Shown: in pieces, positions 13,148-63,092 of the stretch
Layout of the letters: each line of letters opens with the position of its first letter
Position numbering within the stretch: the stretch's first letter is position 1
Source of the DNA: Cherax quadricarinatus
Lineage: Eukaryota > Arthropoda > Malacostraca > Decapoda > Parastacidae
Reading direction: 5' to 3'
Assembly: GCF_038502225.1 (NCBI RefSeq)
Contig: NC_091390.1
Span: 10,142,687 to 10,206,686 of the forward strand
DNA: 64,000 nt
The notes under the pieces: generated by a model
The model's input: only the letters and a program-made list of their open reading frames with translations
Databases searched by the model: none
Told to the model about the DNA's origin: nothing
Program-made: the position numbers and the translations under genes

Positions 13148-13182
13148 GGCAACGTTTCGCTCTCCAGGAGCTTTATCAAGCC
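13148..13182 (-). ncRNA. Hammerhead-like motif, F3 (U3/A8)
   Basis: On the minus strand: GGC, TTGATAA, extra A, stem II GCTC-loop-GAGC, GAAACGTT, GCC. Stem I is GGC/GCC. Core positions 3 and 8 are U and A. Confidence 0.6.
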
Positions 13183-13198
13183 ATGTATTGTTTGTAAT

Positions 13199-13233
13199 GG
13201 CTTGATAAAGCTCCTGGAGAGCGAAACGTTGCC
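13199..13233 (+). ncRNA. Hammerhead-like motif, F3 (U3/A8)
   Basis: Plus-strand partner of the motif at 13148-13182 with the same core, stem II and GGC/GCC stem I; AATAAA follows at once. Confidence 0.6.
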
Positions 13234-13290
13234 ACAATAAATGTCACATTAGTTGCACTTGTGTCCTTTTACTTTACATATTCACCAATA

Positions 13291-13600
13291 ACTAACTCAT
13301 TTTGCCTGTAACTCGCAATACAGCTATCGTGATGGTCTATTCTGCTTAATTTTATTGTAAACCATACCACGGGTGGGGTTAGAACTCGCGATCAGAGAGT
13401 CTCAAAACTTCAGACCGTCGCGATAGCCACGGTCCTTGTTTCACTGTTCTCTCACAGAAACTCATACCACTATTTCTAGTTTAAAGCCCTAACATCCCTA
13501 GCATATGTCATTTCTACCATAGAAGAGGTCCTAGTTTTCTCATTGTCTTCTCTCTTTTGCCCATCTCTATCCTTCTCACTTATAGTAGCTCCCTTTTCTT
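13291..13600. other. SINE-like scrap and unassigned sequence
   Basis: 13371-13440 reads, on the minus strand, as the same tRNA-like head seen at 22800-23023 (CTCTGATCGCGAGTTCTAACC). The rest up to 13600 shows no reading frame or repeat I recognise. Confidence 0.5.
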
Positions 13601-13685
13601 AGTGTGTGATTAGTTAATGGCTTCAGTTCGACCGAAACGTCGTCTAAGTTTCATTCTCCTATGTACGGGTTATTTGTGTATTGTT
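13601..13685 (+). repeat. F6-type PLE terminus, diverged
   Basis: Carries GAAACGTC at 13634-13641 and the TACGGGTTATTTGTG tail; the stem II hairpin is partly broken. Confidence 0.6.
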
Positions 13686-13754
13686 CAATCACGGTATTGT
13701 GCCATTTTATTCCATAGGTCCCAGTTGTTTATAAATGTTACTGCAATGTCCTCA

Positions 13755-13986
13755 CATGCCCCGTAGCTCAGTTACCAGACCACTCAGCTCATACATTAAG
13801 GTCCATTAGACACCTACTGTCCCTGTTGACCTAGCAATAAATAGGTACCCGGGTGTTAGCCAACTGATGTGGGTTGCATCCTGGGCACAAAACCTAGTTT
13901 GCCTGAAATGGTCTGCATGACAAGCGGCTGCCTATATAGTGTGACTGATGTCAATTATGATCTGTATACGTTGTGCATGTACTTGT
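13755..13986 (+). mobile_element. tRNA-derived SINE, left part (interrupted)
   Basis: Begins CCCCGTAGCTCAGTTACC (tRNA-like head) and contains the shared decapod-type SINE middle GGTACCCGGGTGTTAG...GTGGGTTGCATCCTGGG. It is interrupted after TGTACTTGT (13978-13986); that 9-mer recurs at 18889-18897, followed by AGACATAAACATTTA and an (ATT)n tail, which is the expected SINE 3' end. It is the outermost shell of the nested stack 13987-18888. Confidence 0.75.
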
Positions 13987-14059
13987 GGTATAAACCTTGG
14001 TAATAAATACCGACAAGTTGGTTAAGAAAGACACGTAAGCAAACACTAAGACATATTTA

Positions 14060-14099
14060 TTAGAAAACGTTTCGGTCCTGGGACCTTGATCACTTCTAA
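14060..14099 (-). ncRNA. Hammerhead-like motif, F4 (G3/C8)
   Basis: On the minus strand: TTAGAA, GTGATCA, extra A, stem II GGTCC-CA(G)-GGACC-like hairpin, GAAACGTT, TTCTAA. Stem I is six perfect pairs (TTAGAA/TTCTAA). Positions 3 and 8 are G and C instead of the canonical C and G, a base-pair swap. Confidence 0.65.
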
Positions 14100-14406
14100 C
14101 ATACAGAGGTAGAAAGACATTATATATATAGGCGGAGAGTGAGGTGTGACGCACGTGACCTGAGGAATGTCATAAGAACATAGGAATGGAGGAACACTGT
14201 AGAAGGCCTACTGGCCCATGCGAGGCAGGTCCTTATCAAAACAAACACATGATTTCATCGTCTACCCGTCCTCATCATAGGTAGAGGTTGTTTTGTGATG
14301 AATGGTTTGAAAAACCGACAAGTTGAAGATTGTAATAAAGTTGTTAGAATTACCGACAATATGTAAAGTAAAAGGACACAAGTGCAACTAATGTGACATT
14401 TATTGT

Positions 14407-14441
14407 GGCAACGTTTCGCTCTCCAGGAGCTTTATCAAGCC
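14407..14441 (-). ncRNA. Hammerhead-like motif, F3, in PLE inverted arm
   Basis: Same F3 core and stems as 18290-18324, on the opposite strand in the inverted copy of the PLE 3' end. Confidence 0.6.
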
Positions 14442-15259
14442 ATTACAAACAATACATGGACACAGAGGGTATATAAAGGCTCAGAGTGAGGTGAATACTA
14501 GTGAGGTACCATTTCGATGTTCACTAGTGGTAGTAGTAGTAGTAGTAGTAGTGGTAGTGACAAAAGTAATACAATATGGTAGAGCAATTAATTCGTACAT
14601 GAGTAAAAGGATATAAAAGCTATTACTTGGGTAACATAAAAATAGGTTGGACAAATATAAACTGGAATGAGGCAGCTTGTTTCAGTGTTCACTCTCTGTG
14701 CTTTGTGTAGTATAACAGGAGAGACTATGTGATGGCAGGGTTTACTGTTTTCAGGAGGATTCTTGCTAAGACTTCGGAGATGGTGAAGCTGCCGTTGTTT
14801 TGTTTAATTGTATTCGAAACAGCGATCAGTGCTGATTCAAGGCACTTGCGTGTGCGGAAATTAGTTTCTTTTATCACTAATTGGGCGTCTCTGAATTTCA
14901 TAAGATGATTGGTGGAATTTCGGTGTTGTACACAGGCGTTGTTTAAGTTGTCGTTCCTACATGCGTATATGTGTTCATTGAGGCGGGTGTCGAGGTTTCT
15001 TGCTGTTTCACCTACGTAGATCTTGTCACAGCCTCCACAGGGTATAGTGTAAACTCCTGCATTGACTGGTTCGTGGTGCTTGGGTTTTGTCCTGGTTAGA
15101 TCCTTTATTGAAGTGGTAGAAGCGATGGCGACTCTGGTGTTAGCTTGTGAAAGTACTTTTGAGACGTTTAGTGCAACCTGGCTGTTGGGAAGAATTATAA
15201 CTTTGTTGGGAGCGGTGTTGATGCGTGGAGAATTGATGATCTGAAGAGCTCTTTTCTTG

Positions 15260-15780
15260 CAGTCTCTCCAACTCCAAGCACCCCTTCTCTCCAGCTACCC
15301 AAGCTTACTTAACTGAATGTGCCGAAGAACTTTCTAACATCGCTAAGGAAACCTTTGAAACTGCAAGGAATATGAGGGCCAATCTTCAGATTGACCAACA
15401 CACTGCTGAGCATATTCTCAGCAGTCACCACAGCTAACCTCCAACAGAAGATCAAACTCAATCGCAAACTTCAATACCTCTGCACTAACAGTCGATGGAA
15501 GGAAATGGGACGCGAATCCCTGATAAACAACTTATCGTCACGCACCTTAACCGACTACGAGAAACAAGCACTGAGTCTGGGACTCAAATTTACCACCAAC
15601 ATACGCAAACCTAACTATCAACTCAATCTTGTTACCAGGAACCATAGACACAGTGACAGCAACTTCCAGGAGGGTTATATACAGGGCCTTCTCACTGCAG
15701 CTTTATGTGAACCTTCTTCTTCTAATCTTCCTAGAAGATACATCACTGCCCTTAAGGACCTCGCCAACGACCCCAACATC
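15260..15780 (+). pseudogene. PLE N-terminal domain (upstream half of split ORF)
   Basis: The reading starts as AYLTECAEELSNIAKETFE, shifts frame near 15415, and continues (KIKLNRKLQYLC, then LSSRTLTDYEKQALSLGLKF) to DLANDPNI at 15780. The LS...LT..E...L..GLKF block is the conserved segment upstream of the RT in Penelope-like proteins. At 15781 an F2 insert interrupts; the downstream half resumes at 16375 as IIVTTADKGGGVVIL, which joins naturally. One frameshift plus the insertion inactivate it. Confidence 0.85.
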
Positions 15781-15880
15781 TCCACGACTATGGTGCTGTT
15801 CGCACCTACTCCTAGGTTGAGGGACTGATTACCTCATCTTCTGTACATAGTTCTACTGTCTTCAAGTTATGTCCTGGAAT

Positions 15881-15919
15881 TTGTATTGATAAAGCCACTG
15901 GATGGCGAAACGTCTACAA
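15881..15919 (+). ncRNA. Hammerhead-like motif, F2 (U3/A8), unit 1
   Basis: TTGTA (15881-15885), TTGATAA core, extra A, stem II GCCA-loop-TGGC, GAAACGTC (15907-15914), TACAA (15915-15919). Stem I is five pairs, TTGTA/TACAA. Predicted cleavage follows C15914 of the GUC triplet. Stem III would form only between two copies through the self-complementary ACGU. Confidence 0.65.
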
Positions 15920-16157
15920 TAAAGATACCCAGATGTTGCACATGTGTCTTACTCTCATCTTGTCGGTATTATATACCTTTCGTACACAACTTGTCAGACA
16001 CTGCAACATCATGGAATCTTAATTCTAAGGACATGTACATAACCTTCACAACTACGACTACTACTACAACTAACCCATCTCTTTGGGAAGGACCTACTTC
16101 CACTGGGGAATCCCGCCCACCAGTGAATTTGCCCTCGTCTGTTTCACCTGACGTTAC

Positions 16158-16164: not shown

Positions 16165-16295
16165 GCGCCAGGATTCTTTCTTCTGCTTCAGAATCTCCAC
16201 GACTATGGTGCTGTTCGCACCTACTCCTAGGTTGAGGGACTGATTACCTCATCTTCTGTACATAGTTCTACTGTCTTCAAGTTATGTCCTGGAAT

Positions 16296-16334
16296 TTGTA
16301 TTGATAAAGCCACTGGATGGCGAAACGTCTACAA
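16296..16334 (+). ncRNA. Hammerhead-like motif, F2 (U3/A8), unit 2
   Basis: Identical to the motif at 15881-15919; GAAACGTC at 16322-16329, predicted cleavage after C16329, exactly 415 nt from the first site. Confidence 0.65.
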
Positions 16335-16374
16335 TAAAGATACCCAGATGTTGCACATGTGTCTTACTCTCATC

Positions 16375-18021
16375 ATCATTATCGTCACCACCGCCGACAA
16401 AGGAGGTGGAGTCGTCATACTCAACACCAGTGACTACAACACTAAAATGATGGACCTTTTGAATGATCAATCTACATACGAACCCATCAGCACTCAACAG
16501 TGGGAGACGCTCACCAAAGACTTTCTATACAAAACCAGACAAATACTCAAACGCACTAGAGAAGGGAAGAAACTTCTGTACTTGTTACCAAGCAACCCTA
16601 AACCAGCACACATGTATGGTTTACCCAAGACCCATAAACACAATATTCCTCTCAGACCAATCACGTCAGGAATAGGCAGTGCTCCACACAAACTAGCCGG
16701 AGTTCTTGCCAAACATCTTTCCTGCCTTCTGGGGACCATCAGCCCCGCTCATCTTAAACACTCAGGCGACCTTCTCAACCGCATCCGTAACCTCTCCATC
16801 CGTAACAAGAAACTAAGCAGTTTGGATGTGACTTCCCTCTTCACAAAAGTACCTACCAAAAAAGCCATCGAGGTTCTACGACGTAAAGTCAACCAGGACC
16901 TTAATCTTCCTTTACCTCCCGGAGATTTTGTTGACTTGATTGAACTCTGTGTTAACTTCAACTGTTTTTCCTTCAATAACAAGCTCTACAAACAAACCTA
17001 CGGCATGGGAATGGGGTCCCCAATAAGTGCCGTCCTAGCCTACTTATACATGGAACACCTAGAGTCCGAACACTTCGCCAACATCATCCCTTCAAGCGTC
17101 ACTTGGTTACGTTACGTGGACGATGTCCTCGTAATAACTCCAAAACGTTTTGATGTACGGGATCTTCAGGCAAGGCTCAACGCAGTTGAACCAGCGATTC
17201 AGTTTACACTAGAAGAAGAGTCCAATGACAAGCTACCTTTCCTCGACGTCCTCATTCACAAAGTAGACAACAACCTAAGATTTCAAGTTTATCGGAAACC
17301 CACCAATAAAAATGATCTCACACACTTCTATTCCAGTCAAGATACCAAGACCAAAAGAGGCATCATCATCGGGTTTTTCCTAAGAGCATACCGAATTTGT
17401 AGTCCTGAGTTTCTTGACGAGGAATGTACTTACATTCACCAAACATTCACTGAGTTACAATTTCCTTCTTTTTTCATCAAAGACTGCAAGAAAAGAGCTC
17501 TTCAGATCATCAATTCTCCACGCATCAACACCGCTCCCAACAAAGTTATAATTCTTCCCAACAGCCAGGTTGCACTAAACGTCTCAAAAGTACTTTCACA
17601 AGCTAACACCAGAGTCGCCATCGCTTCTACCACTTCAATAAAGGATCTAACCAGGACAAAACCCAAGCACCACGAACCAGTCAATGCAGGAGTTTACACT
17701 ATACCCTGTGGAGGCTGTGACAAGATCTACGTAGGTGAAACAGCAAGAAACCTCGACACCCGCCTCAATGAACACATATACGCATGTAGGAACGACAACT
17801 TAAACAACGCCTGTGTACAACACCGAAATTCCACCAATCATCTTATGAAATTCAGAGACGCCCAATTAGTGATAAAAGAAACTAATTTCCGCACACGCAA
17901 GTGCCTTGAATCAGCACTGATCGCTGTTTCGAATACAATTAAACAAAACAACGGCAGCTTCACCATCTCCGAAGTCTTAGCAAGAATCCTCCTGAAAACA
18001 GTAAACCCTGCCATCACATAG
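16375..18021 (+). CDS. Penelope-like RT with GIY-YIG endonuclease (downstream half)
   Basis: About 549 codons, open throughout. In order: TADKGGGVVIL near 16390 (the PADKG block of PLE RTs), GLPKTHKHNIPLRPI, the fingers-palm segment LDVTSLFTKVP at about 16824, GMGMGSPISAVLAYLYMEHL at about 17000, catalytic WLRYVDDVLVI at about 17104, LPFLDVLIH at about 17235, then the nuclease: YTIPCGGCDKIYVGETAR with the paired cysteines and GIY-YIG core at 17695-17750 and RLNEH. Ends KTVNPAIT, stop at 18019. PLEs use this fusion for target-primed integration. The upstream Met and about 20 codons come from the F2 insert, so this is only the 3' part of the gene. Confidence 0.93.
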   Translation: MIIVTTADKGGGVVILNTSDYNTKMMDLLNDQSTYEPISTQQWETLTKDFLYKTRQILKRTREGKKLLYLLPSNPKPAHMYGLPKTHKHNIPLRPITSGIGSAPHKLAGVLAKHLSCLLGTISPAHLKHSGDLLNRIRNLSIRNKKLSSLDVTSLFTKVPTKKAIEVLRRKVNQDLNLPLPPGDFVDLIELCVNFNCFSFNNKLYKQTYGMGMGSPISAVLAYLYMEHLESEHFANIIPSSVTWLRYVDDVLVITPKRFDVRDLQARLNAVEPAIQFTLEEESNDKLPFLDVLIHKVDNNLRFQVYRKPTNKNDLTHFYSSQDTKTKRGIIIGFFLRAYRICSPEFLDEECTYIHQTFTELQFPSFFIKDCKKRALQIINSPRINTAPNKVIILPNSQVALNVSKVLSQANTRVAIASTTSIKDLTRTKPKHHEPVNAGVYTIPCGGCDKIYVGETARNLDTRLNEHIYACRNDNLNNACVQHRNSTNHLMKFRDAQLVIKETNFRTRKCLESALIAVSNTIKQNNGSFTISEVLARILLKTVNPAIT

Positions 18022-18201: not shown

Positions 18202-18289
18202 CACTAGTGAACATCGAAATGGTACCTCACTAGTATTCACCTCACTCTGAGCCTTTATATACCCTCTGTGTCCATGTATTGTTTGTAAT

Positions 18290-18324
18290 GGCTTGATAAA
18301 GCTCCTGGAGAGCGAAACGTTGCC
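18290..18324 (+). ncRNA. Hammerhead-like motif, F3, PLE 3' end
   Basis: GGC, TTGATAA, A, GCTC-loop-GAGC, GAAACGTT, GCC, then ACAATAAA. It sits about 35 nt after a TATATA box in the 3' terminal region of the PLE, tying this ribozyme family to a coding element. Confidence 0.65.
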
Positions 18325-18415
18325 ACAATAAATGTCACATTAGTTGCACTTGTGTCCTTTTACTTTACAAGTTGAAGATTGAGACACTTATGCAGCATAT
18401 GGGAATCTTTATTCA

Positions 18416-18450
18416 GGAAACGTTTCGCCACACAGTGGCTTCATCAGTCC
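18416..18450 (-). ncRNA. Hammerhead-like motif, F1 (canonical core)
   Basis: On the minus strand: GGA, CTGATGA, A, GCCAC-TGT-GTGGC, GAAACGTT, TCC. The core matches the hammerhead consensus exactly apart from one extra A before stem II. Confidence 0.68.
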
Positions 18451-18804: not shown

Positions 18805-18844
18805 TTAGAAGTGATCAAGGTCCCAGGACCGAAACGTTTTCTAA
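18805..18844 (+). ncRNA. Hammerhead-like motif, F4 (G3/C8)
   Basis: TTAGAA, GTGATCA, A, GGTCC-CA-GGACC type hairpin, GAAACGTT, TTCTAA, then ATAAAT. Plus-strand partner of 14060-14099. Confidence 0.65.
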
Positions 18845-18907
18845 TAAATATGTCCTAGTGTTTGCTTACGTGTCTTTCTAAACCAACTTGTACTTGTAGA
18901 CATAAAC

Positions 18908-19322: not shown

Positions 19323-19357
19323 GGAAACGTTTCGCCATACAGTGGCTTCATCAGTCC
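19323..19357 (-). ncRNA. Hammerhead-like motif, F1
   Basis: Canonical CTGATGA and GAAAC; stem I GGA/TCC; stem II has one mismatch (GCCAC-TGT-ATGGC). Confidence 0.6.
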
Positions 19358-19435
19358 ATACATAGGAGAAACTTGAAGAACAGGAGGGACTGATTACCTC
19401 ATTCTCCTCCTGTTCTTCAAGTTTCTCCTATGTAT

Positions 19436-19470
19436 GGACTGATGAAGCCACTGTGTGGCGAAACGTTTCC
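19436..19470 (+). ncRNA. Hammerhead-like motif, F1
   Basis: GGA, CTGATGA, A, GCCAC-TGT-GTGGC, GAAACGTT, TCC; ATTAAAG follows. Confidence 0.68.
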
Positions 19471-27860: not shown

Positions 27861-28184
27861 GAGGATTGAGACACTTATGCAACATATGGGAATCTTTATT
27901 CAGGAAACCTTTCGCCACACAGTGAGTTCATCAGTCCGATACAATGTAGAAAGGCGTAAGGAGAGGAGGAGTTTGAGGTAATCAGTCCCTCAACCTCGAG
28001 TCGATGTGTTCAGCTGAGGGGCTGATTACCTCAAACTCCTCCTCTCCTTACGCCTTTCTACTTTGTATTGGACTGATGAAGCCACTGTGTGGCGAAACGT
28101 TTCCTGAATAAAGATTCCCATATGTTGCATAAGTGTCTCAATCTTCAACTTGTCGGTTTTTCAAACCATTCATCACAACAACTT
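27861..28184. mobile_element. F1 fold-back insertion with 11-bp TSD
   Basis: Inverted arms, 324 bp in total, TSD ACAACAACTTT at 27850-27860 and 28185-28195. The left arm motif (27903-27937) is mutated in GAAAC; the right arm is intact. The right end carries TTGTCGG and the hairpin GGTTT-loop-AAACC. Confidence 0.92.
28070..28104 (+). ncRNA. Hammerhead-like motif, F1
   Basis: GGA, CTGATGA, A, GCCAC-TGT-GTGGC, GAAACGTT, TCC, then TGAATAAAG. Confidence 0.68.
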
Positions 28185-28239: not shown

Positions 28240-29171
28240 GAAGGGTCTGTCTACACCAAGATAACTTCAGGAGTTAACGTAACTGACGATTTGTCTACAC
28301 CAAGATAACTTCAGGAGTTAACGTAACTGACAGTTTGTCTACACCATGATAACTTCAGGAGTTAACGTAACTGACGGTTTGTCTACACCAAGATAACTTC
28401 AGGAGTTAACGTAGCTGACAGTTTGTCTACACCATGATAACTTCAGGAGTTAACGTAACTGACGGTTTGTCTACACCAAGATAACTTCAGGAGTTAACGT
28501 AGCTGACAGTTTGTCTACACCAAGATAACTTCAGGAGTTAACGTAACTGACGGTTTGTTTACACCAAGATAAATTCAGGAGTTAACGTAACTGACGGTTT
28601 GTCTACACCAAGATAACTTCAGGAGTTAACGTAACTGACGGTCTGTCTACACCAAGATAACTTCAGGAGTTAACGTAACTGACTGTTTGTCTTCACCAAG
28701 ATAACTTCAGGAGTTAACATAACTGACGGTTTGTCTACACCAAGATAACTTCAGGAGTTAACGTAACTGACGGTTTGTCTACACCAAGATAACTTCAGGA
28801 GTTAACGTAACTGACGGTTTGTCTACACCAAGATAACTTCAGGAGTTAACGTAACTGACGGTCTGTCTACACCAAGATAACTTCAGGAGTTAACGTAACT
28901 GACTGTTTGTCTTCACCAAGATAACTTCAGGAGTTAACATAACTGACGGTTTGTCTACACCAAGATAACTTCAGGAGTTAACGTAACTGACGGTTTGTCT
29001 ACACCAAGATAACTTCAGGAGTTAACGTAACTGACGGTTTGTCTACACCAAGATAACTTCAGTAGTTAACGTAACTGACGGTCTGTCTACACCAAGATAA
29101 CTTCAGGAGTTAACGTAACTGACGATTTGTGTACACCAAGATAACTTCAGGAGTTAACGTAACTGACGGTT
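28240..29171. repeat. 44-bp minisatellite, about 21 copies
   Basis: Unit around TTTGTCTACACCAAGATAAC / TTCAGGAGTTAACGTAACTG. Each unit contains the short inverted repeat TAACT-TCAGG-AGTTA. A five-unit (220-bp) block with the variants GTCTTCACC and TTAACATAAC occurs twice (about 28690 and 28910), so there is a small higher-order repeat. No open frame. Confidence 0.95.
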
Positions 29172-29269
29172 TCACCCTGCAAACAGATGTGTTGGGGGGA
29201 AGTTGTTTTCTTGTCACTAGCTTTGTTTCAGATTAAGAAGGTAGAAGAGTACTTAGATCATTAATAAGA

Positions 29270-33614: not shown

Positions 33615-34740
33615 TGTAGACAGCCTGTGCTGTCTGCACAGACAGCCCATGCTGTCTGCCAGCTTAGTTGATATTTCGCGCCACTAAGGTGCTACCATCT
33701 ATAGGCCTTGCCACTTCAGTATGCCCAGACTTGCCTCGCTCTCACTCACACAGCGGCCTGGCATCAAGACACAAGTACTCCCAGCTCTCTCTCGTGGGCA
33801 TGGCCCTGCCCGGGCCATGGGCACAAACACACAAGCCTGTGTAACCCAACACTAGTTATCAATAAAGTAAGAAGCCTCCGAAGAATTATATCATTAACAC
33901 CGCTCTACAGCTACCAAATAACCCCCATTATAAATGGTGGCAGCGGTGGGATTCCGCCCCTAACCTCTGGGCTGCCATTGATGCGCTAGGACTCGGCCCT
34001 CAGCACGACGTCCTGGGTGCATATGACGCCATCGACTCGCTCAAGCCGCCTTCCGAGCAAGGCAAGGTTTGCCGCTTTGCGGATGATCCCCTACCCATCC
34101 TTCCAGCGCCGTCCACAGTGACCCCGCGGTCGCAGCCGGAAGTCACTTTTGCTGCTGCTGTCAGACAGCCAGCCCACAAAGTTTCTAACCCCAGTCCCAC
34201 TAATACGCGCCTAAGTAAAAATAGCGACCACAGTAACAACAGTCGGTCTTATACAAAAAGGCAGTCATCGACTTCCTGGATCAGGGCGAAACGTCGCCAG
34301 CAGACACCACCCCCAACCTCACCCGCTAAGCGTGTAGTGACTTGTTTCAACTGTGGCAAACGTGGGCACTACCGATCTGAGTGTTACAAACTTAAGTCCC
34401 CGCAAAGTAACCGTCACAGTCCCCACGCTCAGTATCAAGGTAACCGTCACCGTCCCCATGCCCAGTCTCGCGAGGGAATCTGTGTTTACCACAATACTTC
34501 CAGTCATACCTCCCATGAGTGTAACAAGCTGCGAAGTATGCTGACAGCTGAGTGGAGCAAGCAGTCGTCGCGCAATGCACATGCTCGTAGAAGCCCTTCC
34601 ACTAGTTCGGGGGAAGAGGCGCGTCCGCAAAACCAGCGAAAGACGTAGTAACCCTGTCGGAGTCGCTGTATTCCGTCCCTGTCCGCAATGCATTCGCCGC
34701 CCTGGGCAGTGATACACTTGCCGACAGTGACGGAATACAG
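33615..34740 (+). mobile_element. Truncated Gypsy copy, plus strand
   Basis: LTR (33615 to about 33930, starting TGTAGACAGCC), the primer-binding region TGGTGGCAGCGGTGGGA, then a jump straight into gag at codon ~165 (APNLWAAIDALG) and on to the gag end at 34648 and a short pol start. It is a near-identical inverted copy of parts of the minus-strand Gypsy at 39780-41430, with leader and gag N-terminus deleted. Confidence 0.82.
34118..34648 (+). pseudogene. Gypsy gag C-terminal half with CCHC knuckle
   Basis: Carries CFNCGKRGHYRSEC at about 34343-34385 and continues to RPQNQRKT, stop. It matches the C-terminal half of the gag at 39872-41059 over its full length. Confidence 0.85.
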
Positions 34741-34793
34741 CGACTCCGACAGGGTTACTACGTCTTTCGCTGGTTTTGCGGACGCGCTGTTAC

Positions 34794-35117
34794 TGTTATT
34801 GCTGTTCTTGCTGCTGAACAGCGGTTTAGTGCCGATGAAGGTAGCGTAGGTAGCAATGATACGGCCGTGGACTAGATTGGCTTTAATCGGGTAGGAGTGA
34901 GTACACAACGGGCAGTGTGAGGAAGTGACCGCAAGCCAGTCCGTGGAGGGGGAGTACTTGTGTACGTCAAGTCGGTCGAGGCGGGAGTGAGAGAGGGTGG
35001 ACTGTGCGTCCCACCGACCTAGGTAGGCCTACAGAGGGCAGCACTGAATGCCGCGAAATATGAACTAGTCAGAGCAGACGGCTAGGCTGTGTGCTCTGAC
35101 AGTACAGGCTGTCTACA
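34794..35117 (-). repeat. Gypsy LTR, family A, 3' side
   Basis: 324 bp, TGTAGACAGCC...AACA read on the minus strand. It is near-identical to 44254-44577. It follows the pol gene by about 540 bp. Its outer neighbour (34714-34793) is an inverted piece of the gag-pol junction, so no clean TSD survives. Confidence 0.8.
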
Positions 35118-35660
35118 TTTGCTCGGCCACGCACCTCGCGTCGTCCCGACGCGACAATACTGGTGGGCCCATAGGTATAAAGGAATTACACTAGCTACCC
35201 CAGAGAGGGACTGGCTTTCGCTCACTAGTAAATAAAAAATGGACAAAAAAAAATGCAACAGGCAAAAAAAAAAAACTCTCCCATCCAGGAGAAGAGAAAA
35301 CTGGTTTGCCCGCGCTGTTTCATCGAGTAGAGAGCCCGGAGACGTCAGCACTGGAACTAAAATCTTCTATATACAGGTTGTCCGCAGGGCTGAACATCAG
35401 TTGACCACTCGTCTACTAACGTTATTGCACGCTCACATCTGCAAACAATGACTGACAGTAGCATTTCCTAAGGTGTGACATGTAACTCAGAGGGCAGCAC
35501 TGCCCTGACCGTAATACAGGCTTTTTTTTACTTTAGTTATAAAACACTGATGCACATACGTACAATAATACTATATCCATGGAATTCATTACACTCTGGG
35601 TACCCTTCTAAAAGTATTTACATAATTACATGATGTTGTCCACCCTGACTCTATTATCGA
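35118..35660 (-). other. Gypsy pol-to-LTR region
   Basis: Untranslated sequence between pol and the 3' LTR, including a purine or pyrimidine-rich stretch (AAAAAAAAA near 35247-35275) and, beside the LTR, GTCGCGTCGGGACGACGCG, which recurs beside the LTR at 41429-41470. Confidence 0.6.
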
Positions 35661-38600: not shown

Positions 38601-39610
38601 TTCCTGCACTGGCCGGGTGTTGGAAGAGTCAGCAGCAGACTCGCCTGGGAGAACTGCACTCACAAGGAAGTCAGCTGGGGCTTCACCCTCCACTCTCACC
38701 GGGAGAGGGAATCTGACAAGGTCGACAAGTGAGGTATTCTTCCGCAGGGGAAATTCTCGACTATGCATGTTGACAACAAGGACTTGCAACTTACCACGTT
38801 GCACTGTGTGCAAGGATGGTTCAAGGGAGAGGCCCTTGACTCGGCATGTGTCGTTGTCAACCAGCACATGGTCTCCTTCAAAAGCTCTGCTCACGTACAC
38901 CATAACAGGAGTGAGCGAGTTAGCTGACAAAGTGACGTCATACTTTGTACAAGCAGTAACTCTGCTCGCTGATGCCATGACACGAGTCAGACAGTCGCCT
39001 GCCGACAGGGATACTGCGGCTTGACAACTGCTGGTCTCTACAACAGCGTCAGAGTTAGAGTGAAGGTTAGACTGGGCGTCCCCAGACTGGGTTTCACTGG
39101 TAACTATGCGCTGATGGCCAGGAGGTGATGGGCAACGAGCTCTACTACGAGGTCGATCAGGACGAGAGACCGACCCCGGGGAGAATGTGCTATGGAAACC
39201 ACCGGTTTCCAACGATTCTAGGCACTGTGCATACTCTGAGACAGAGTAGCACGTAGTGGATCCTAAGCGCACGCCCCAGAAGGGCACATCCACTCCGTTG
39301 AATTCCGCTTTCCACTCAGCTGGATCTAAACGGATCCTAAGATCTGCCATGGTTTTGAACCCTATGAGCAGGTCACCATGGAAAACAATACCATCTACGA
39401 CTAAGAATTTTGCGGACAGCTTGTGACCCTGGACCACAAATTCTAGCGTTGTGCGACCGCGAACCGTCAGCGGTTTACCTGAGACTCCTCTCAAGGTCTG
39501 AATGGCAGATGGCTCTGTCAACATGGCCGCGTGAAGGCCAATGTCTCGGAAAAAGGTGGAGCGGACAATGTTAACCACCGAACCTGTGTCTAGGAAAAGC
39601 TGAACAGGCT
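35661..39610 (-). CDS. Gypsy pol polyprotein: PR-RT-RNase H-integrase
   Basis: 1305 codons from 39578 without a stop. The protease active site LFLDTGS lies just upstream in the same frame (about 39585-39610). RT: LILVPKKDGTWRPVIDYRKL, LLQGFWQIPL, FGLRGSPITFSRLM, catalytic VYVDDLIV near 37990. RNase H: FTLTTDASKVGIGAVLSQ near 37540. Integrase: HPGKDRSIKQARMKYFWP with CVVC zinc finger (about 36820-36920), VMVDNLTRYSELVPI and LLSDNGSEFINGI. The GPYRVLRQLRGNKFEVREI block near 36000 is the C-terminal integrase domain. Ends at 35661. Metaviridae-type element; no env gene is seen. Confidence 0.93.
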
Positions 39611-39871
39611 TATTGTGGACAGTGGACTCGATGAGCGGTCCACATGGGTTGTCATACCGAACATGAAGGCATGACAGGCCGACGAGGTCCCCGGAGTCAC
39701 AGCTGCTCGAGGCTCGACACTTGTTGACGAGGCTCGACCTGGAAGGTACTGTACGAGTCTCAGCAACAACGTCAATTCACTCGGTTTCCTCACTGTCGGC
39801 AAGCGTATCACTGCCCAGGGCGGCGAATGCATTGCGGACAGGGACGGAATACAGCGACTCCGACAGGGTTA
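39611..39871 (-). pseudogene. Gypsy gag-pol junction / protease N-terminus
   Basis: In the pol frame it reads VVTLSESLYSVPVRNAFAAL then ADSEETE, a TGA stop near 39777, then IDVVAETRTVPSRSSLVNK and on to the protease. The frame differs from gag, so expression would need frameshifting; the TGA probably breaks the polyprotein. Confidence 0.6.
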
Positions 39872-41059
39872 CTACGTCTTTCGCTGGTTTTGCGGACGCG
39901 CCTCTTCCCCCGAACTAGTGGAAGGGCTTCTACGAGCATGTGCATTGCGCGACGACTGCTTGCTCCACTCAGCTGTCAGCATACTTCGCAGCTTGTTACA
40001 CTCATGGGAGGTATGACTGGAAGTATTGTGGTAAACACAGATTCCCTCGCGAGACTGGGCATGGGGACGGTGACGGTTACCTTGATACTGAGCGTGGGGA
40101 CTGTGACGGTTACTTTGCGGGGACTTAAGTTTGTAACACTCAGATCGGTAGTGCCCACGTTTGCCACAGTTGAAACAAGTCACTACACGCTTAGCGGGTG
40201 AGGTTGGGGGTGGTGTCTGCTGGCGACGTTTCGCCCTGATCCAGGAAGTCGATGACTGCCTTTTTGTATAAGACCGACTGTTGTTACTGTGGTCGCTATT
40301 TTTACTTAGGCGCGTATTAGTGGGACTGGGGTTAGAAACTTTGTGGGCTGGCTGTCTGACAGCAGCAGCAAAAGTGACTTCCGGCTGCGACCGCGGGGTC
40401 ACTGTGGACGGCGCTGGAAGGATGGGTAGGGGATCATCCGCAAAGCGGCAAACCTTGCCTTGCTCGGAAGGCGGCTTGAGCGAGTCGATGGCGTCATATG
40501 CACCCAGGACGTCGTGCTGAGGGCCGAGTCCTAGCGCATCAATGGCAGCCCAGAGGTTAGGGGCGGAATCCCTCCGCATGATGCCGACAGCCAGCATGGG
40601 GATGATGTCTTTAATAGCAATACGGCCATCACCATCCGCCCACTTAGTGGAGTTGACGGCATCAGTAAAGTCCGTGGCGACTTGCTCTAAACGGCAAACG
40701 CAAGCCAGGGGGCTTTCGTGCCGGTATTGACATTCGGCCAAGACGCTGGTAACGATGTCAATGTAATGGCGTTGGCGACTACGCCGAAAATAACGCCTAA
40801 ATTCCTCCTTAAGTTCACCCCAAGACTGAATCTTACAAACGCGCTTGAGCTGCACAAAGGCACCTATATCACCCTGGGTGAGATCCACTGCTGCAACAGC
40901 AGCACGAATGTACTGTGTATCCGTTGGGCTATCAAATAGAGCCTGAACAGTCGCCTCGACTGACTGCAGCCATGGCTCTAAACTATTTGCACGACCGTCA
41001 AAAATAAGGGTCAGGTATTGACGATGAGCCGGCCCACTGGTGGTCGAGGCTTGAGCCAC
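39872..41059 (-). CDS. Gypsy gag (capsid and nucleocapsid)
   Basis: 395 codons, ATG at 41059 (MAQASTTSGPAHRQYLTLIF). The N-terminal half, with EPWLQSVEATVQALF and WGELKEEFRRYFRR, is a retrotransposon gag capsid-like region. The C-terminal nucleocapsid has CFNCGKRGHYRSEC at about 40140-40180 and a second Cys/His cluster (CVYHNTSSHTSHEC). It ends RKT with two stops; pol lies in another frame. It is intact by eye. Confidence 0.9.
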   Translation of the reverse strand: MAQASTTSGPAHRQYLTLIFDGRANSLEPWLQSVEATVQALFDSPTDTQYIRAAVAAVDLTQGDIGAFVQLKRVCKIQSWGELKEEFRRYFRRSRQRHYIDIVTSVLAECQYRHESPLACVCRLEQVATDFTDAVNSTKWADGDGRIAIKDIIPMLAVGIMRRDSAPNLWAAIDALGLGPQHDVLGAYDAIDSLKPPSEQGKVCRFADDPLPILPAPSTVTPRSQPEVTFAAAVRQPAHKVSNPSPTNTRLSKNSDHSNNSRSYTKRQSSTSWIRAKRRQQTPPPTSPAKRVVTCFNCGKRGHYRSECYKLKSPQSNRHSPHAQYQGNRHRPHAQSREGICVYHNTSSHTSHECNKLRSMLTAEWSKQSSRNAHARRSPSTSSGEEARPQNQRKT

Positions 41060-41106
41060 AAGTTAGAGGAGAGGAAGTGGCTGTTCCTCATCCCACCGCT
41101 GCCACC

Positions 41107-51212: not shown

Positions 51213-53530
51213 AATTTTGTCTCAGGATGCGACCCACACCAGTCCACTAACACCCAGGATGTGACCCACACCAGTCCACTAACACCCAGGATGTGGCACA
51301 CACCAGTCCACTAACACCCAGGATGTGGCCCACACCAGTCCACTAACACCCAGGATGTGACCCACACCAGTCCACTAACACCCAGGATGCGACCCACACC
51401 AGACCACTAGCACCAACGATGTGACCCACACCAGTCCACTAACACCCAAGATGTGACCCACACCAGACCACTAGCACCCAGGATGTGACCCACACCAGTC
51501 CACTAACACCCAGGATGTGACCCACACCAGTCCACTAACACCCAGGATGTGACCCACACCAGTCCACTAACACCCAGGATGTGACCCATACCAGTCCACT
51601 AACACCCAGGATGTGACCCACACCAGTCCACTAACACCCAGGATGTGACCCACACCAGTCCACTAACACCCAGGACGTGACCCACATCAGTCCACTAACA
51701 CCCAGGATGCGACCCACACCAGTCCACTAACACCCAGGATGTGGCCCACACCAGTCCACTAACACCAAGGATGTGACCCATACCAGTCCACTAACACCCA
51801 GGACGTGACCCACACCAGTCCACTACCACCCAGGATGTGACCCACACCAGTCCACTAACACCCAGAATGTGACCCACACCAGTCCACTAACACCCAGGAC
51901 GTGACCCACACCAGTCCACTAACACCCAGGATGTGACCCACACCAGTCCACTAACACCCAGGATGTGACCCATACCAGTCCACTAACACCCAGGACGTGA
52001 CCCACACCAGTCCACTAACACCAAGGATGTGACCCATACCAGTCCACTAACACCCAGGATGTGACCCACGCCAGTCCACTAACACCCAGGATGTGACCCA
52101 TACCAGTCCACTAACACCCAGGACGTGACCCACACCAGTCCACTAACACTCAGGATGTGACCCATACCAGTCCACTAACACCAAGGATGTGACCCATACC
52201 AGTCCACTAACACCCAGGATGTGACCCACACCAGTCCACTAACACCCAGAATGCGACCCACACCAGTCCACTAACACCCAGGATGCGACCCACACCAGTC
52301 CACTAACACCCAGGATGTGACCCACACCAGTCCACTAACTCCCAGGATGTGACCCACACCAGTCCACTAACACCCAGGATGCGACCCACACCAGTCCACT
52401 AACACCCAGGATGTGACCCACACCAGTCCACTAACACCCAGGATGCGACCCACACCAGTCCACTAACACCCAGGATGTGGCCCACACCAGTCTACTAACA
52501 CCCAGGATGTGACCCACACCGGTCCACTAACACCCAGGACGTGACCCACACCAGTCCACTAACACCCAGGATGTGACCCACACCAGTCCACTAACACCCA
52601 GGATGTGACCCATACCAGTCCACTAACACCCAGGACGTGACCCACACCAGTCCACTAACACCAAGGATGTGACCCATACCAGTCCACTAACACCCAGGAT
52701 GTGACCCACGCCAGTCCACTAACACCCAGGATGCGACCCACACCAGTCCACTAACTCCCAGGATGTGACCCACACCAGTCCACTAACACCCAGGATGTGA
52801 CCCACACCAGTCCACTAACTCCCTGGATGTGACCCACACCAGTCCACTAACACCCAGGATGCGACCCACACCAGTCCACTAACACCAAGGATGTGACCCA
52901 TACCAGTCCACTAACACCCAGGATGTGACCCACACCAGTCCACTAACACCCAGGATGTGACCCACACCAGTCCATTAACACCCAGGATGTGACCCACACC
53001 AGTCCACTAACACACAGGATGTGACCCACACCAGTCCACTAACACCCAGGATGTGACCCACACCAGTCCACTAACACCCAGGATGTGACCCACACCAGTC
53101 CACTAACACCAAGGATGTGACCCACACCAGTCCACTAACACCCAGGATGTGACCCACACCAGTCCACTACCACCCAGGATGTGACCCACACCAGTCCACT
53201 ACCACCCAGGATGTGACCCACACCAGTCCACTAACACCCAGGATGTGACCCACACCAGTCCACTAACACCAAGGATGTGACCCACACCAGTCCACTAACA
53301 CTCAGGATGTGACCCACACCAGTCCACTAACACCCAGGATGTGACCCACACCAGTACACTAACACCAAGGATGTGACCCACACCAGTCCACTAACACCCA
53401 GGATGTGACCCACACCAGTCCACTAACACCCAGGATGTGACCCACACCAGTCCACTAACACCCAGGATGTGACCCACATCAGTCCACTAACACCCAGGAT
53501 GTGACCCACACCAGTCCACTAACACCCAGG
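51213..53530. repeat. 32-bp satellite derived from the middle of a SINE
   Basis: About 72 copies of a 32-bp unit (GATGTGACCCACACCAGTCC / ACTAACACCCAG). The unit equals, in reverse, the segment GGGTGTTAG...GGGTCGCATCC of the tRNA-SINE at 27607-27640. The right end passes straight into the rest of that SINE (53531-53650), and the left end starts with a few bases resembling its other side (TTGTCTCAGGATGCGACC). Confidence 0.95.
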
Positions 53531-55386: not shown

Positions 55387-55421
55387 GGAAACGTTTCGCC
55401 ACACAGTGGCTTCATCAGTCC
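55387..55421 (-). ncRNA. Hammerhead-like motif, F1
   Basis: Canonical CTGATGA and GAAAC, stem II GCCAC-TGT-GTGGC, stem I GGA/TCC. Confidence 0.68.
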
Positions 55422-55509
55422 ATACATATGCCGTATTCTATTCAAGATTGATGGACTGACCACATCGACTCAAGGTTGAGGGACTGATTACCTCATTCTC
55501 CTCCTGTAT

Positions 55510-55544
55510 GGACTGATGAAGCCACTATGTGGCGAAACGTTTCC
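55510..55544 (+). ncRNA. Hammerhead-like motif, F1
   Basis: As above; the stem II loop reads TAT instead of TGT. TTAATAAAG follows. Confidence 0.66.
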
Positions 55545-58120: not shown

Positions 58121-58159
58121 TTGTAGACGTTTCGCCATCCAGTGGCTTTATCAATACAA
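58121..58159 (-). ncRNA. Hammerhead-like motif, F2 (U3/A8)
   Basis: TTGTA, TTGATAA, A, GCCA-loop-TGGC, GAAACGTC, TACAA on the minus strand. Confidence 0.65.
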
Positions 58160-58370
58160 ATTCCAGGACATAACTTGAAGACAGTAGAACTATGTACAGA
58201 AGATGAGGTAATCAGTCCCTCAACCTAGGAGTAGGTGCGAACAGCACCATAGTCGTGGAGATTCTGAATCTCCACGACTATGGTTCTGTTCGCACCTACT
58301 CCTAGGTTGAGGGACTGATTACCTCATCTTCTGTACATAGTTCTACTGTCTTCAAGTTATGTCCTGGAAT

Positions 58371-58409
58371 TTGTATTGATAAAGCCACTGGATGGCGAAA
58401 CGTCTACAA
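58371..58409 (+). ncRNA. Hammerhead-like motif, F2 (U3/A8)
   Basis: Identical elements on the plus strand; AATAAAG follows. Confidence 0.65.
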
Positions 58410-60118: not shown

Positions 60119-60119
60119 C

Positions 60120-60931: not shown

Positions 60932-61005
60932 GTAAGTAACATCTATATTCCAAAACACTAATGAAGAATTGAGACACTTATGCAACGCATGGGAATCTTT
61001 ATTGA

Positions 61006-61040
61006 AGAAACGTTTCGCCACACAGTGGCTTCATCAGTCC
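61006..61040 (-). ncRNA. Hammerhead-like motif, F1
   Basis: Canonical core; stem I weakened (GGA/TCT). Confidence 0.62.
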
Positions 61041-61201
61041 AATACAAAGTAGAAATGGGTAAGGAGAGTAGAAGTATGAGGTAATCAGTCCCTCAACCTG
61101 GATTCGATGTGTTCAGTCCATCACTCTTGTAGTAAGTGCAGGATAAGGCCAGAGAGGTGGCTTATATACTGCGGTGAGATGAGTTGAAGCAGGAGGAGGC
61201 A

Positions 61202-61236
61202 GGACTGATGAAGCCACTGTGTGGCGAAACGTTTCT
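61202..61236 (+). ncRNA. Hammerhead-like motif, F1
   Basis: Canonical core and stem II; stem I GGA/TCT; TCAATAAAG follows. Confidence 0.62.
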
Positions 61237-61320
61237 TCAATAAAGATTCCCATGTGTTGCATAAGTGTCTCAATTCTTCAACTTGTCGGTTTCCAAAACC
61301 ATTCATCACAAAACACTAAT

Positions 61321-61781: not shown

Positions 61782-61852
61782 GTTAGGTAAGACACATATG
61801 CAACAGTTAGGTATGAAAGTTAAGACACATGTGCAACATCTGGATATCTTTA

Positions 61853-61891
61853 TTGTAGACGTTTCGCCATCCAGTGGCTTTATCAATACAG
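61853..61891 (-). ncRNA. Hammerhead-like motif, F2 (U3/A8)
   Basis: Four-pair stem I (TGTA/TACA), F2 core and stem II. Confidence 0.63.
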
Positions 61892-62264
61892 ATTCTAGGA
61901 CATAATAGGAAGACAGTAGAACTATATACAAAAGATGAGGTAATCAGTCCCTCGGCCTTGGAGTTAGTGTTCACAGCATCGTGGTGAAGGAGAATCTGAA
62001 GCAAAGGCAAGAAGACTGGCGTTTATATAGTCGTCAGTGGATAGGGACGGGCAGCAGACGAGGGCAAAGTCGGTATTTTATACGTTTCTTGCACAACTTG
62101 TCAGACACTGCAACATCATGGAATCTTGGTTCAGAGGACATCTACAAGACCTTCTTCACGGCTGCTGCAACTAACCCATCTCTTTGGGAAAGACCTACTT
62201 CCACTGGGGAATCCCGCCTACCAGTGACTGCCCTCGTCTGCTGCCCGTCCCTTCCACTGACGCC

Positions 62265-62271
62265 TATATAA
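62265..62271 (+). promoter_or_regulatory. TATA-like box of F2
   Basis: TATATAA, about 165 nt before the predicted cleavage site at 62436, matching the box at 16158. Confidence 0.45.
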
Positions 62272-62402
62272 CCGCCAGTCTTCTTGCCTTTGCTCCAGAT
62301 TCTCCTTCACCACGATGCTGTGAACACTAACTCCAAGGTCGAGGGACTGATTACCTCATCTTTTGTATATAGTTCTACTGTCTTCCTATTATGTCCTAGA
62401 AT

Positions 62403-62441
62403 CTGTATTGATAAAGCCACTGGATGGCGAAACGTCTACAA
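62403..62441 (+). ncRNA. Hammerhead-like motif, F2 (U3/A8)
   Basis: Four-pair stem I, TTGATAA core, GAAACGTC, followed by AATAAAG. Confidence 0.63.
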
Positions 62442-62531
62442 TAAAGATATCCAGATGTTGCACATGTGTCTTAACTTTCATATTGTCGGTATTTTATACC
62501 TTTCTTGCACAACAGTTAGGTATCTTTATTA

Positions 62532-62568
62532 TGAAACGTTTCGCCTACACAGTAGGCTTCTTCAGTCA
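62532..62568 (-). ncRNA. Hammerhead-like motif, F5 (canonical core)
   Basis: On the minus strand: TGA, CTGAAGA, A, GCCTAC-loop-GTAGGC, GAAACGTT, TCA. Position 7 is A, which the consensus allows; C3/G8 are canonical. Confidence 0.65.
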
Positions 62569-62765
62569 AGTACAGAAAAGTTGATAGAAGCAGAAGATAC
62601 TTGAAGACGATGTAATCAGTCCATCACCCTTAAAGTTTTGAGGTGGTCAGTCCCTCAGTCTGGAGAAGAGCATTGTTCCATAGTCTGAAGCAATAAGTAT
62701 CTAGCATAAAATACTGACAAGTTGAAGATTAAAAAATATATGCAACAGTTGGATATCTATGTTGA

Positions 62766-62802
62766 TGAAACGCTTCGCCTACACAGTAGGCTTCTTCAGT
62801 CA
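62766..62802 (-). ncRNA. Hammerhead-like motif, F5, mutated
   Basis: Same layout as 62532-62568, but the invariant GAAAC reads GAAGC, so it is likely inactive. Confidence 0.5.
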
Positions 62803-63016
62803 AATACAAAGGATGCAATAGTAATGAAATATAAACGTAATCAGTCCATCAACCTTGGAGAAAAAGTATGAGATGGTTAGTCCCTCAGAGTGGAGAAGAG
62901 TTCAGCTTCATTGTCTGCAGGGACTGACCACCTCAAATACTTTTCCTCCAAAGCTGATGTAGAAAAAGTATTTTAAAGTAAAAGGACACAAGTGCAACTA
63001 ATGTGACATTTATTGT

Positions 63017-63051
63017 GGCAACGTTTCGCTCTCCAGGAGCTTTATCAAGCC
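63017..63051 (-). ncRNA. Hammerhead-like motif, F3 (U3/A8)
   Basis: GGC/GCC stem I, TTGATAA core, GCTC/GAGC stem II. Confidence 0.6.
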
Positions 63052-63057
63052 AGTAAT

Positions 63058-63092
63058 GGCTTGATAAAGCTCCTGGAGAGCGAAACGTTGCC
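63058..63092 (+). ncRNA. Hammerhead-like motif, F3 (U3/A8)
   Basis: Plus-strand partner of 63017-63051; AATAAAT follows. Confidence 0.6.

Follow-up and report, generated by a model that had tools for sequence, protein, structure and literature searches.

Minimal type I hammerheads that lack stem III have been described in the end repeats of Penelope-like elements, with cleavage proposed to occur in dimers (Cervera and De la Pena, 2014; Lunse, Weinberg and Breaker, 2017; both compared here through citing papers). Dimer cleavage has precedent for stem-III-poor hammerheads (PMC7761336, PMC7229834), and what the minimal hammerheads do in Penelope-like elements has been called "still a mystery" (PMC7761336). 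In the Anolis element PAc, which encodes a reverse transcriptase (RT) and a GIY-YIG endonuclease, the hammerhead lies in the pLTR, has C3/G8 and overlaps the start codon; its cleavage in vitro depends on the protein of the element, and RNA-seq gave no ends at the cut (PMC11167929). Metazoan non-LTR retrozymes are non-autonomous, short units in tandem that carry type I hammerheads, canonical ones in invertebrates, and the 126,247 motifs of axolotl do better as dimers (PMC7229834); retrozymes have been described without promoters (PMC7761336). The discontinuous Clec2 hammerhead of mammals lies in the mRNA 3' UTR and has been suggested to play a part in where polyadenylation occurs (PMC6155905).

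We analysed a window of 64,000 nucleotides of Cherax quadricarinatus DNA. Its repeated motifs are hammerheads of a known kind, the minimal type I form without stem III that Penelope-like elements carry. Our preferred reading, which we judge from the sequence to be probable, is that these hammerheads likely belong to crayfish Penelope-like elements and would self-cleave as pairs of RNAs, that they keep the pair between core positions 3 and 8 while its letters vary, and that most cuts would likely remove a poly(A) signal. The features are listed below; except where stated, each hammerhead (families F1 to F5) was matched by both the regular expression and the covariance model described after the list, and the short motifs were read in the sequence, following the pattern, spacing or positions of their family.

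13151..13179, minus: F3 hammerhead, T3/A8 (core to nucleotide 17; model match 13138-13189; divergent pair with 13202)
13202..13230, plus: F3 hammerhead, T3/A8
14066..14093, minus: F4 hammerhead, G3/C8, outer left end
14410..14438, minus: F3 hammerhead, T3/A8, left end of Penelope-like element
14725..15294, minus: GIY-YIG part of the same Penelope-like ORF, as an inverted fragment (same translated sequence; Pfam GIY-YIG E 1e-05)
15376..15828, plus: probable part of the Penelope-like ORF upstream of the nested F2 copies (no Pfam match)
15886..15914, plus: F2 hammerhead, T3/A8, the first in a tandem of two, cut predicted after 15914
15918..15923, plus: AATAAA, 3 nt past the predicted cut, sharing 2 nt with stem I
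15943..15948, plus: GU-rich TGTGTC, 19 nt after AATAAA
16158..16165, plus: TATATAAG, TATA-like box of the second F2 copy
16231..18021, plus: stop-to-stop ORF, Penelope-like reverse transcriptase and GIY-YIG endonuclease (Pfam RVT_1, GIY-YIG)
16301..16329, plus: F2 hammerhead, T3/A8, the second in this tandem, cut predicted after 16329
18256..18261, plus: TATATA upstream of F3 hammerhead
18293..18321, plus: F3 hammerhead, T3/A8, right end of Penelope-like element
18327..18332, plus: AATAAA, 5 nt past the predicted cut of the F3 copy
18419..18447, minus: F1 hammerhead, C3/G8
18811..18838, plus: F4 hammerhead, G3/C8, outer right end
18843..18848, plus: AATAAA, 4 nt past the predicted cut, starting with 4 nt of the 8-bp stem I (F4)
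19326..19354, minus: F1 hammerhead, C3/G8
19439..19467, plus: F1 hammerhead, C3/G8, with ATTAAA instead of AATAAA downstream
28073..28101, plus: F1 hammerhead, C3/G8
55390..55418, minus: F1 hammerhead, C3/G8
55513..55541, plus: F1 hammerhead, C3/G8
58126..58154, minus: F2 hammerhead, T3/A8
58376..58404, plus: F2 hammerhead, T3/A8
61009..61037, minus: F1 hammerhead, C3/G8
61205..61233, plus: F1 hammerhead, C3/G8
61858..61886, minus: F2 hammerhead, T3/A8
62408..62436, plus: F2 hammerhead, T3/A8
62535..62565, minus: F5 hammerhead, C3/G8, nucleotide 7 = A
63020..63048, minus: F3 hammerhead, T3/A8
63061..63089, plus: F3 hammerhead, T3/A8

A regular expression for the pattern NTGANNA...GAAACGTH, open at positions 3 and 8, gave 26 matches in the window, three of which are no intact hammerheads (13606+, 62081- and 63181+, the last with C3/A8). 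When stem I and stem II of at least 3 each were required, 23 strict copies remained, whereas 50 shuffled versions of the window (two-base blocks) gave 0 each; the hammerhead order that the initial annotation had ascribed to families F1 to F5 is thus borne out. A covariance model built in this analysis, some rows of its alignment having been picked for a paired 3/8, gave 28 window matches with E < 1e-4, namely the 23 strict copies, 63181+ and four more decayed copies. A search of Rfam, a check also proposed by the annotation, gave no hammerhead, either at the gathering score (0 matches) or among the 53 listed matches with E <= 10, which we attribute to the missing stem III. The window and fetched loci together provide 104 strict copies, and GAAACGT occurs in 100 of them, the expression having left GAANNNT open and 79 of the 104 coming from loci fetched with GAAACGT. 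Nucleotide 17, at which the cut ends predicted earlier at 15914 and 16329 do fall, is T in 77 copies and C in 27. G12, A13, A14, A15.1, U16.1 and H17 of the canonical hammerhead are matched, whereas the search pattern itself required U4, G5, A6 and A9. The genome holds 140,372 core matches in 3.95 Gb.

The canonical hammerhead has three stems. Here only CG stands between A15.1 and U16.1, so one copy has no stem III, and a palindromic ACGT stands where that stem would be. Type I order, stems I and II, the lack of stem III and a predicted capacity to dimerise place the motifs with the minimal Penelope type. As two nucleotides could not close stem III in a single RNA, two copies would have to pair, through ACGU and each other's stem I, and would be cut after nucleotide 17; the partners could be neighbouring units of a tandem, two separate transcripts or both ends of a single one.

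The tie to a Penelope-like element comes from F3. Hammerheads of this family stand at both ends (14410- and 18293+) of an element in which, as in Penelope-like elements, a reverse transcriptase is followed by a GIY-YIG endonuclease and the ends are repeated, directly or in inverted order. Its ORF 16231..18021 matches Pfam RVT_1 (E 1.2e-08) and GIY-YIG (E 6.6e-05); of 7992 sequences scored, 1886 are relatives at E <= 0.001. Families F1, F2, F4 and F5 have no ORF assigned to them here, and we infer that they belong to Penelope-like elements as well. The arrangement resembles that of Anolis PAc, whose hammerhead overlaps a start codon, while the crayfish copies are followed by AATAAA. Short tandem units of 378 bp (with three hammerheads) and 421 bp, carrying type I hammerheads, recall metazoan retrozymes; unlike the canonical invertebrate retrozyme hammerheads with their loop contacts, these lack stem III, and the units carry TATA-like and AATAAA motifs.

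The initial annotation described the motif correctly and missed what adjoins it. In 92 of the 104 strict copies A[AT]TAAA starts 3-6 nt past the predicted cut. The same count over the 104 copies was 0, 0, 3 and 3 when the window searched was displaced downstream to four places, and 0 and 1 at two places upstream. The offset of A[AT]TAAA takes one value per named family in this set, from 4 to 7 between families; it is not strictly fixed, an F2 tandem array showing 7 against 4 in the other F2 copies. A GU-rich element follows 18-20 nt beyond AATAAA in 70 of these 92 copies and is absent in 18, so that both parts of a cellular poly(A) site are found and the ribozyme would lie just before a predicted poly(A) site. 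Genome-wide, AATAAA stands at the expected place in 110,210 of the 140,372 cores (reversed control, 22), and GAAACGT-AATAAA-GTGTC has 170,250 matches (reversed control, 14). As AATAAA lies just past the predicted cut, cleavage would probably part the RNA from its poly(A) signal, severing or pre-empting the tail. The combination of a predicted cut with AATAAA and a GU-rich element at almost constant distances appears to be new, and sets these copies apart from the minimal hammerheads of Cervera and Lunse as far as the citing papers describe them. The Clec2 hammerhead, which would share with them a place in a 3' UTR, differs in being type III, in host genes and with a very long helix I. Found at more than 100,000 places in one genome, the combination suggests a testable role, control of the RNA's 3' end.

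A TATA-like box lies 30-49 nt upstream in 21 of 28 F4, 9 of 13 F3, 14 of 26 F2 and 2 of 2 F1b copies; at 70-89 nt upstream the control gave 2, 0, 1 and 0, respectively. F1 has such a box in only 8 of 23 copies at the two positions scored, and none of 8 F5 copies has one within 150 nt. Downstream of the hammerhead the families look related, and for this reason AATAAA may persist partly by descent.

The strongest alternative, to which we give a minor but real share of probability, accepts an active hammerhead and takes AATAAA for an inherited AT-rich stretch or a target-site feature and not a poly(A) signal. It agrees with the relatedness of the families downstream and with parts of the module being missing from F1b (2 of 2 without the GU-rich match) and F5 (no TATA-like box in 8 of 8); among 20 copies fetched from minor or older families, 10 also have no A[AT]TAAA. 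Against simple inheritance, the offset from the cut varies by family while the distance from AATAAA to the GU-rich element stays at 18-20 nt in 70 of 92 copies, and in 18 representatives identity over the 16 nt that follow AATAAA is only 33%. The F1 pair 19326-19467 also has ATTAAA, a variant of the poly(A) signal, as a substitute.

On our preferred reading, with AATAAA as a poly(A) signal, the end repeat would work like an LTR, with a TATA-like box, the hammerhead and then the poly(A) site; the cut would either pre-empt polyadenylation or shed the tail, and the ribozyme-made end could be circularised by a host ligase. We tentatively propose an extension, which we regard as rather doubtful, in which the hammerhead acts as a tail-shedding switch between a promoter and a poly(A) site starting in or just after stem I, and pairing of copies would choose between messenger and transposition template. 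Where copies meet, the cut, 3-6 nt before AAUAAA, would leave the RNA tailless and with an end suited to ligation into a circle; where copies stay apart, AAUAAA would be used and an mRNA would result. Stem I, which differs between families, would limit this choice to kin RNA. In each of six families it matches among the members, and between families it mostly does not; cofolding energies are mixed, kin pairs not being cleanly favoured.

The assignment of C3/G8 to F1 and F5, T3/A8 to F2 and F3 and G3/C8 to F4, made earlier, agrees with the window matches. In a set open at 3/8 (window plus L001-L030, fetched without condition on 3 or 8), the two positions are paired in 40 of 41 stem-intact copies (C-G 25, U-A 12, G-C 3; one A-A). 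Genome-wide, 126,657 of 140,372 core matches (90.2%) have a Watson-Crick 3/8 pair; A8 accompanies T3 in 53,562 of 58,334 (91.8%) and C8 accompanies G3 in 9,336 of 11,005 (84.8%). The covariation claimed for 3/8 is real at the sequence level. Whether U3/A8 or G3/C8 forms occur naturally had been left open: C3-G8 to U3-A8 covariation is known from several hammerheads (Perreault 2011, PMC3088659), a report that in the passages covered does not name the G3-C8 found here at 9,336 places, and no report of a natural G3/C8 hammerhead was found in the literature covered, in which Lünse 2017 and Cervera 2014 figure through citing papers. Judged through citing papers, the abundance of U3/A8 and G3/C8 families here differs from the minimal hammerheads of those two studies. 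In the Anolis element a C3G/G8C double mutant partly restores cleavage (PMC11167929). The 2'-OH of nucleotide 8 is the proposed general acid (PMC6155905); acting through it, nucleotide 8 presumably need not be G. The abundant G3/C8 family offers a natural test of the limits of swapping the 3-8 pair.

Copies are not independent events, and it is conceivable, if unlikely, that the hammerheads are fossils, passengers of old families that look conserved through recent shared ancestry, their 3/8 differences being a few historical accidents. Many copies in one family have an identical core, and three main pairs in big families imply only few independent changes. Deviations in F6, an ageing family, are mostly single (among the first 100 listed, 86 U-A, 13 single changes and one A-G double change, with no paired double change), and the Anolis element inserted in vitro with hammerhead cleavage dispensable (PMC11167929). 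Yet 40 of 41 unconditioned copies pair at 3/8, with the 16 nt that follow AATAAA diverging; between families the two sides of stems I and II change together, and three pair types with T4, G5, A6 and A9 kept do not resemble free drift.

In the stem alignment, biased at 3/8 by the choice of rows, 95.3% of cells are paired against 66.0% after shuffling, with 36 two-sided changes against 9.9. The stem I covariation reported earlier thus holds, the same pairs per family recurring in the window matches, and stem II covaries too. That the motif is kept for DNA or protein binding by the element's reverse transcriptase or GIY-YIG endonuclease, the fold being incidental, is very improbable: it does lie in the end repeats, where the element would cut and prime, and the Anolis enzyme has AT-rich, ATT-type targets near the ORF-pLTR junction (PMC11167929), but a bound DNA site would keep its letters, whereas these stems keep pairing while letters change, and the hammerhead consensus is matched position by position, part of it having been asked for by the search patterns. 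The extra A before stem II, also noted previously, occurs in 102 of the 104 strict copies of the window and fetched loci.

All five hammerhead-like families described in the initial annotation (F1 and F5 with C3/G8, F2 and F3 with U3/A8 and F4 with G3/C8 at core positions 3 and 8) are present in the window as stated there. A regular expression for the core gives 26 matches, three of which (13606, plus strand; 62081, minus strand; 63181, plus strand) are not intact. When both stems are required, 23 copies are obtained in the window vs. none in any of the 50 block-shuffled controls. A covariance model based on 16 copies gives 28 matches in the window at E < 1e-4, corresponding to 23 strict copies (stem I and stem II of at least 3 each), the copy at 63181 (plus strand) and four decayed copies beyond the regular expression. 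The Rfam search suggested earlier did not report any hammerhead, neither at the gathering score nor among 53 matches at E ≤ 10; we think that its many miRNA-like matches come from hairpins formed by AT repeats and by hammerhead pairs in divergent, inverted arrangement. A related stretch including stem II and GAAACGT, in which the 5′ half of the core is not intact, is located at 13606–13641 and at positions 73216 and 5026276 of the 104,317,202-base contig C1. It is perhaps a further diverged family, and AATAAA is absent after it at window 13606 and C1:73216.

Covariation of positions 3 and 8, the central claim made from the sequence, was borne out in a sample fetched without any condition on these positions (the window plus genome loci L001–L030; 53 distinct matches, 41 of them stem-intact). 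Three pair types are found in it, and 40 of the 41 stem-intact copies pair (C-G 25, U-A 12, G-C 3, A-A 1). A second, larger sample comprises 104 strict copies, 25 from the window, 16 from L001–L030 and 63 from loci selected by the G3/C8 or U3/A8 pattern; its 3/8 combinations are U-A 40, C-G 33, G-C 28 and one each of A-A, A-U and G-G. GAAACGT is present in 100 of these 104 copies, nucleotide 17, after which cleavage is predicted, is T in 77 and C in 27, and the extra A before stem II that had been pointed out is found in 102. In an alignment of 16 representatives, 95.3% of cells are paired in the named structure vs. 66.0% after shuffling and 34–51% when slid, and two-sided changes occur in 36 cells vs. 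9.9 after shuffling; 11 of the 20 minor copies that had been fetched are excluded from this alignment. As its rows are window copies and copies picked by a paired-3/8 pattern, the 100% pairing of positions 3 and 8 in this alignment is not evidence, and the alignment supports stems I and II only.

We searched the whole genome (3.95 Gb, 7,334 contigs) using the reversed pattern as control. The pattern TGATNAA-N(8-24)-GAAACGT gives 140,372 matches (control 2,963); this and the following counts refer to the core pattern alone with stems unchecked, represent copies and not independent events, and may be lower bounds for large repeat families. C3/G8 accounts for 63,572 matches (control 64), U3/A8 for 53,562 (control 211) and G3/C8 for 9,336 (control 67). 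For A3/U8 there are 187 places vs. 93 in the control. Six of them that looked hammerhead-like were fetched, three with both stems (L557, L559, L561) and three with stem I broken (L556, L558, L560); an A3/U8 family is not claimed. The four Watson-Crick pair types together make up 126,657 of the 140,372 matches (90.2%); free variation at both positions would give about 40%, by rough arithmetic from these shares without column counts. A8 occurs in 91.8% of the 58,334 matches with T3 (control 578) and C8 in 84.8% of the 11,005 with G3 (control 472); the C3 and A3 rows combined amount to 71,033 by subtraction, including the C3/G8 and A3/U8 matches. The large families imply just a few changes at positions 3 and 8. 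In F6, an ageing U3/A8 family with 1,249 genome matches, the first 100 listed include 86 copies with U-A, 13 with a single change (a U-G wobble in one case), one with A-G and none with a paired double change, and these deviations look like decay of dead copies. One F6 copy (L555) has G3/C8 with both stems kept.

A second regularity lies immediately downstream of the core. A[AT]TAAA begins within 20 nt after U16.1 in 92 of the 104 strict copies; displaced windows contain it in 0, 0, 3 and 3 copies downstream and in 0 and 1 upstream. Within the 104-copy set each named family has a single offset (F2, 4; F4 and F5, 5; F1 and F3, 6; F1b, a further family, 7), that is, 3–6 nt beyond the predicted cut; an F2 tandem array outside this set (L563) has an offset of 7. 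A GU-rich element, [TC]GTGT[CT], follows A[AT]TAAA by 18–20 nt in 70 of the 92 copies; 18 of the 92 have no match to it. Among 18 representatives picked for having AATAAA, the 16 nt following it show merely 33% identity, and GTG[TC] is at the expected distance in 13. In the genome, AATAAA occupies the linked position in 110,210 of the 140,372 cores (reversed control 22), and GAAACGT-AATAAA-GTGTC gives 170,250 matches (reversed control 14). AATAAA is absent from 10 of the 20 fetched minor or older copies. Stem I overlaps the first 1–2 nt of AATAAA in F2, and 4 nt of it in 19 of the 24 AATAAA-bearing F4 copies. TATA-like boxes are found 30–49 nt upstream in F4 (21/28), F3 (9/13), F2 (14/26) and F1b (2/2), and 120–149 nt upstream in F1 (7/23) and F2 (10/26); the control interval of 70–89 nt contains 2 in F4, 0 in F3, 1 in F2, 0 in F1b and 1 in F1. 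F5 has no TATA-like box within 150 nt upstream.

The copies of three families are arranged around a Penelope-like element as follows.

Penelope-like element and adjacent hammerheads
14066, minus strand: F4 hammerhead flanking the element
14410, minus strand: F3 hammerhead at the end with the inverted partial ORF
14725–15294, minus strand: inverted partial copy of the 16231–18021 ORF, at the element's other end
15886 and 16301: two F2 hammerheads in tandem, within the element's coding stretch
16231–18021: ORF with reverse transcriptase and GIY-YIG endonuclease
18293, plus strand: F3 hammerhead downstream of this ORF
18811, plus strand: F4 hammerhead flanking the element

From this order of features we interpret the F3-ended unit as an inverted form of a Penelope-like element. 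The tandem F2 copies are likely nested, as they lie inside the coding stretch. Linkage to an ORF covers F3 only; no ORF is tied to F1, F2, F4 or F5. Among the first 100 places listed on C1, 34 neighbours lie no more than 1 kb apart, and 23 of these are divergent (minus-then-plus), whereas strand shuffling gives 8.5 expected and a maximum of 16 in 2000. In the window, divergent pairs are located at 13148–13234, 55390–55541, 58126–58404 and 63020–63089. In such a pair either strand encodes a hammerhead, which a read-through RNA could fold into a hairpin with its own antisense. Tandem non-autonomous units were also found, one of 378 bp (L562; F1, three hammerheads) and one of 421 bp (L563; F2), the array of the latter reversing direction midway; both keep the order TATA-like box, hammerhead, AATAAA seen elsewhere.

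A single copy would be unable to close stem III, since A15.1 and U16.1 are separated by CG alone; two copies could do so, ACGU being self-complementary. In a two-copy ribozyme, stem I would likewise have to be shared between both copies and, as its sequence differs among families, kin pairs would be favoured. A plain count of stem I base pairs does favour kin, F3×F6 (4 bp) and F1×F4 (3 bp) being exceptions. Cofolding energies of six motifs show no clean within-family preference: F1×F3 (-9.5) and F1×F5 (-8.9) are better than F1×F1 (-6.1), and F6×F5 (-7.3) is better than F6×F6 (-5.9). The acid is proposed to be the 2′-OH of nucleotide 8 (PMC6155905), so that a base change at this position with pairing kept appears chemically plausible. 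Predicted cleavage would land immediately before AAUAAA. If it took place ahead of the poly(A) machinery, an RNA without a tail would presumably result; if it followed polyadenylation, the tail would be lost.

Penelope-like elements have been described to carry hammerheads without stem III, their role being termed a mystery (PMC7761336). Penelope elements are reported in Astacidea at a mean of 2.3% (PMC10454600). In axolotl, 126,247 hammerhead motifs and dimer action are reported (PMC7229834). U3-A8 is known from several natural hammerheads (PMC3088659), and hammerheads with deviant cores can still cleave (PMC10085705). For an Anolis element, C3G/G8C is reported to give partial rescue, and its hammerhead to require protein and to be dispensable for insertion in vitro (PMC11167929). 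A role in a polyadenylation site has been suggested for the Clec2 hammerhead (PMC6155905). The hammerheads reported here are real, and a known kind explains them well. A literature search for a hammerhead-AATAAA linkage or a natural G3/C8 family found neither, and earlier publication is possible; as far as the literature seen goes, novelty lies in the natural G3/C8 family and in the ribozyme-poly(A) junction. The junction, predicted from sequence, is the chief novelty, and we put it forward as a testable proposal.

Relatives were sought in viral contigs and prokaryote genomes. With three core patterns, one of at least 361 matches listed in viral contigs passed both stem tests, and it was without AATAAA. 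Prokaryote genomes contain 78 stretches with the core-plus-AATAAA pattern, and viral contigs 13; among the 92 regular-expression matches in these stretches, 10 passed a one-stem test and none had both stems. A Penelope-like protein query gave no match in viral contigs.

Other features were recorded in the genome and in the window. On a contig of 104,317,202 bases, a public gene model from Cherax quadricarinatus that is annotated as an amino-acid transporter (P0093) has a piece of Penelope-like reverse transcriptase after the transporter domain; this fusion is probably an annotation artefact. The window further includes the following elements.

Other repeats in the window
33866–41062: Gypsy-type element, with two copies of a gag-like part in inverted order
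35661–39776, minus strand: intact 1371-aa pol ORF of the Gypsy-type element
1–7014: satellite array, 23-bp unit
28244–29172: satellite array, 44-bp unit
51223–53530: satellite array, 32-bp unit
63643–64000: satellite array, 70-bp unit
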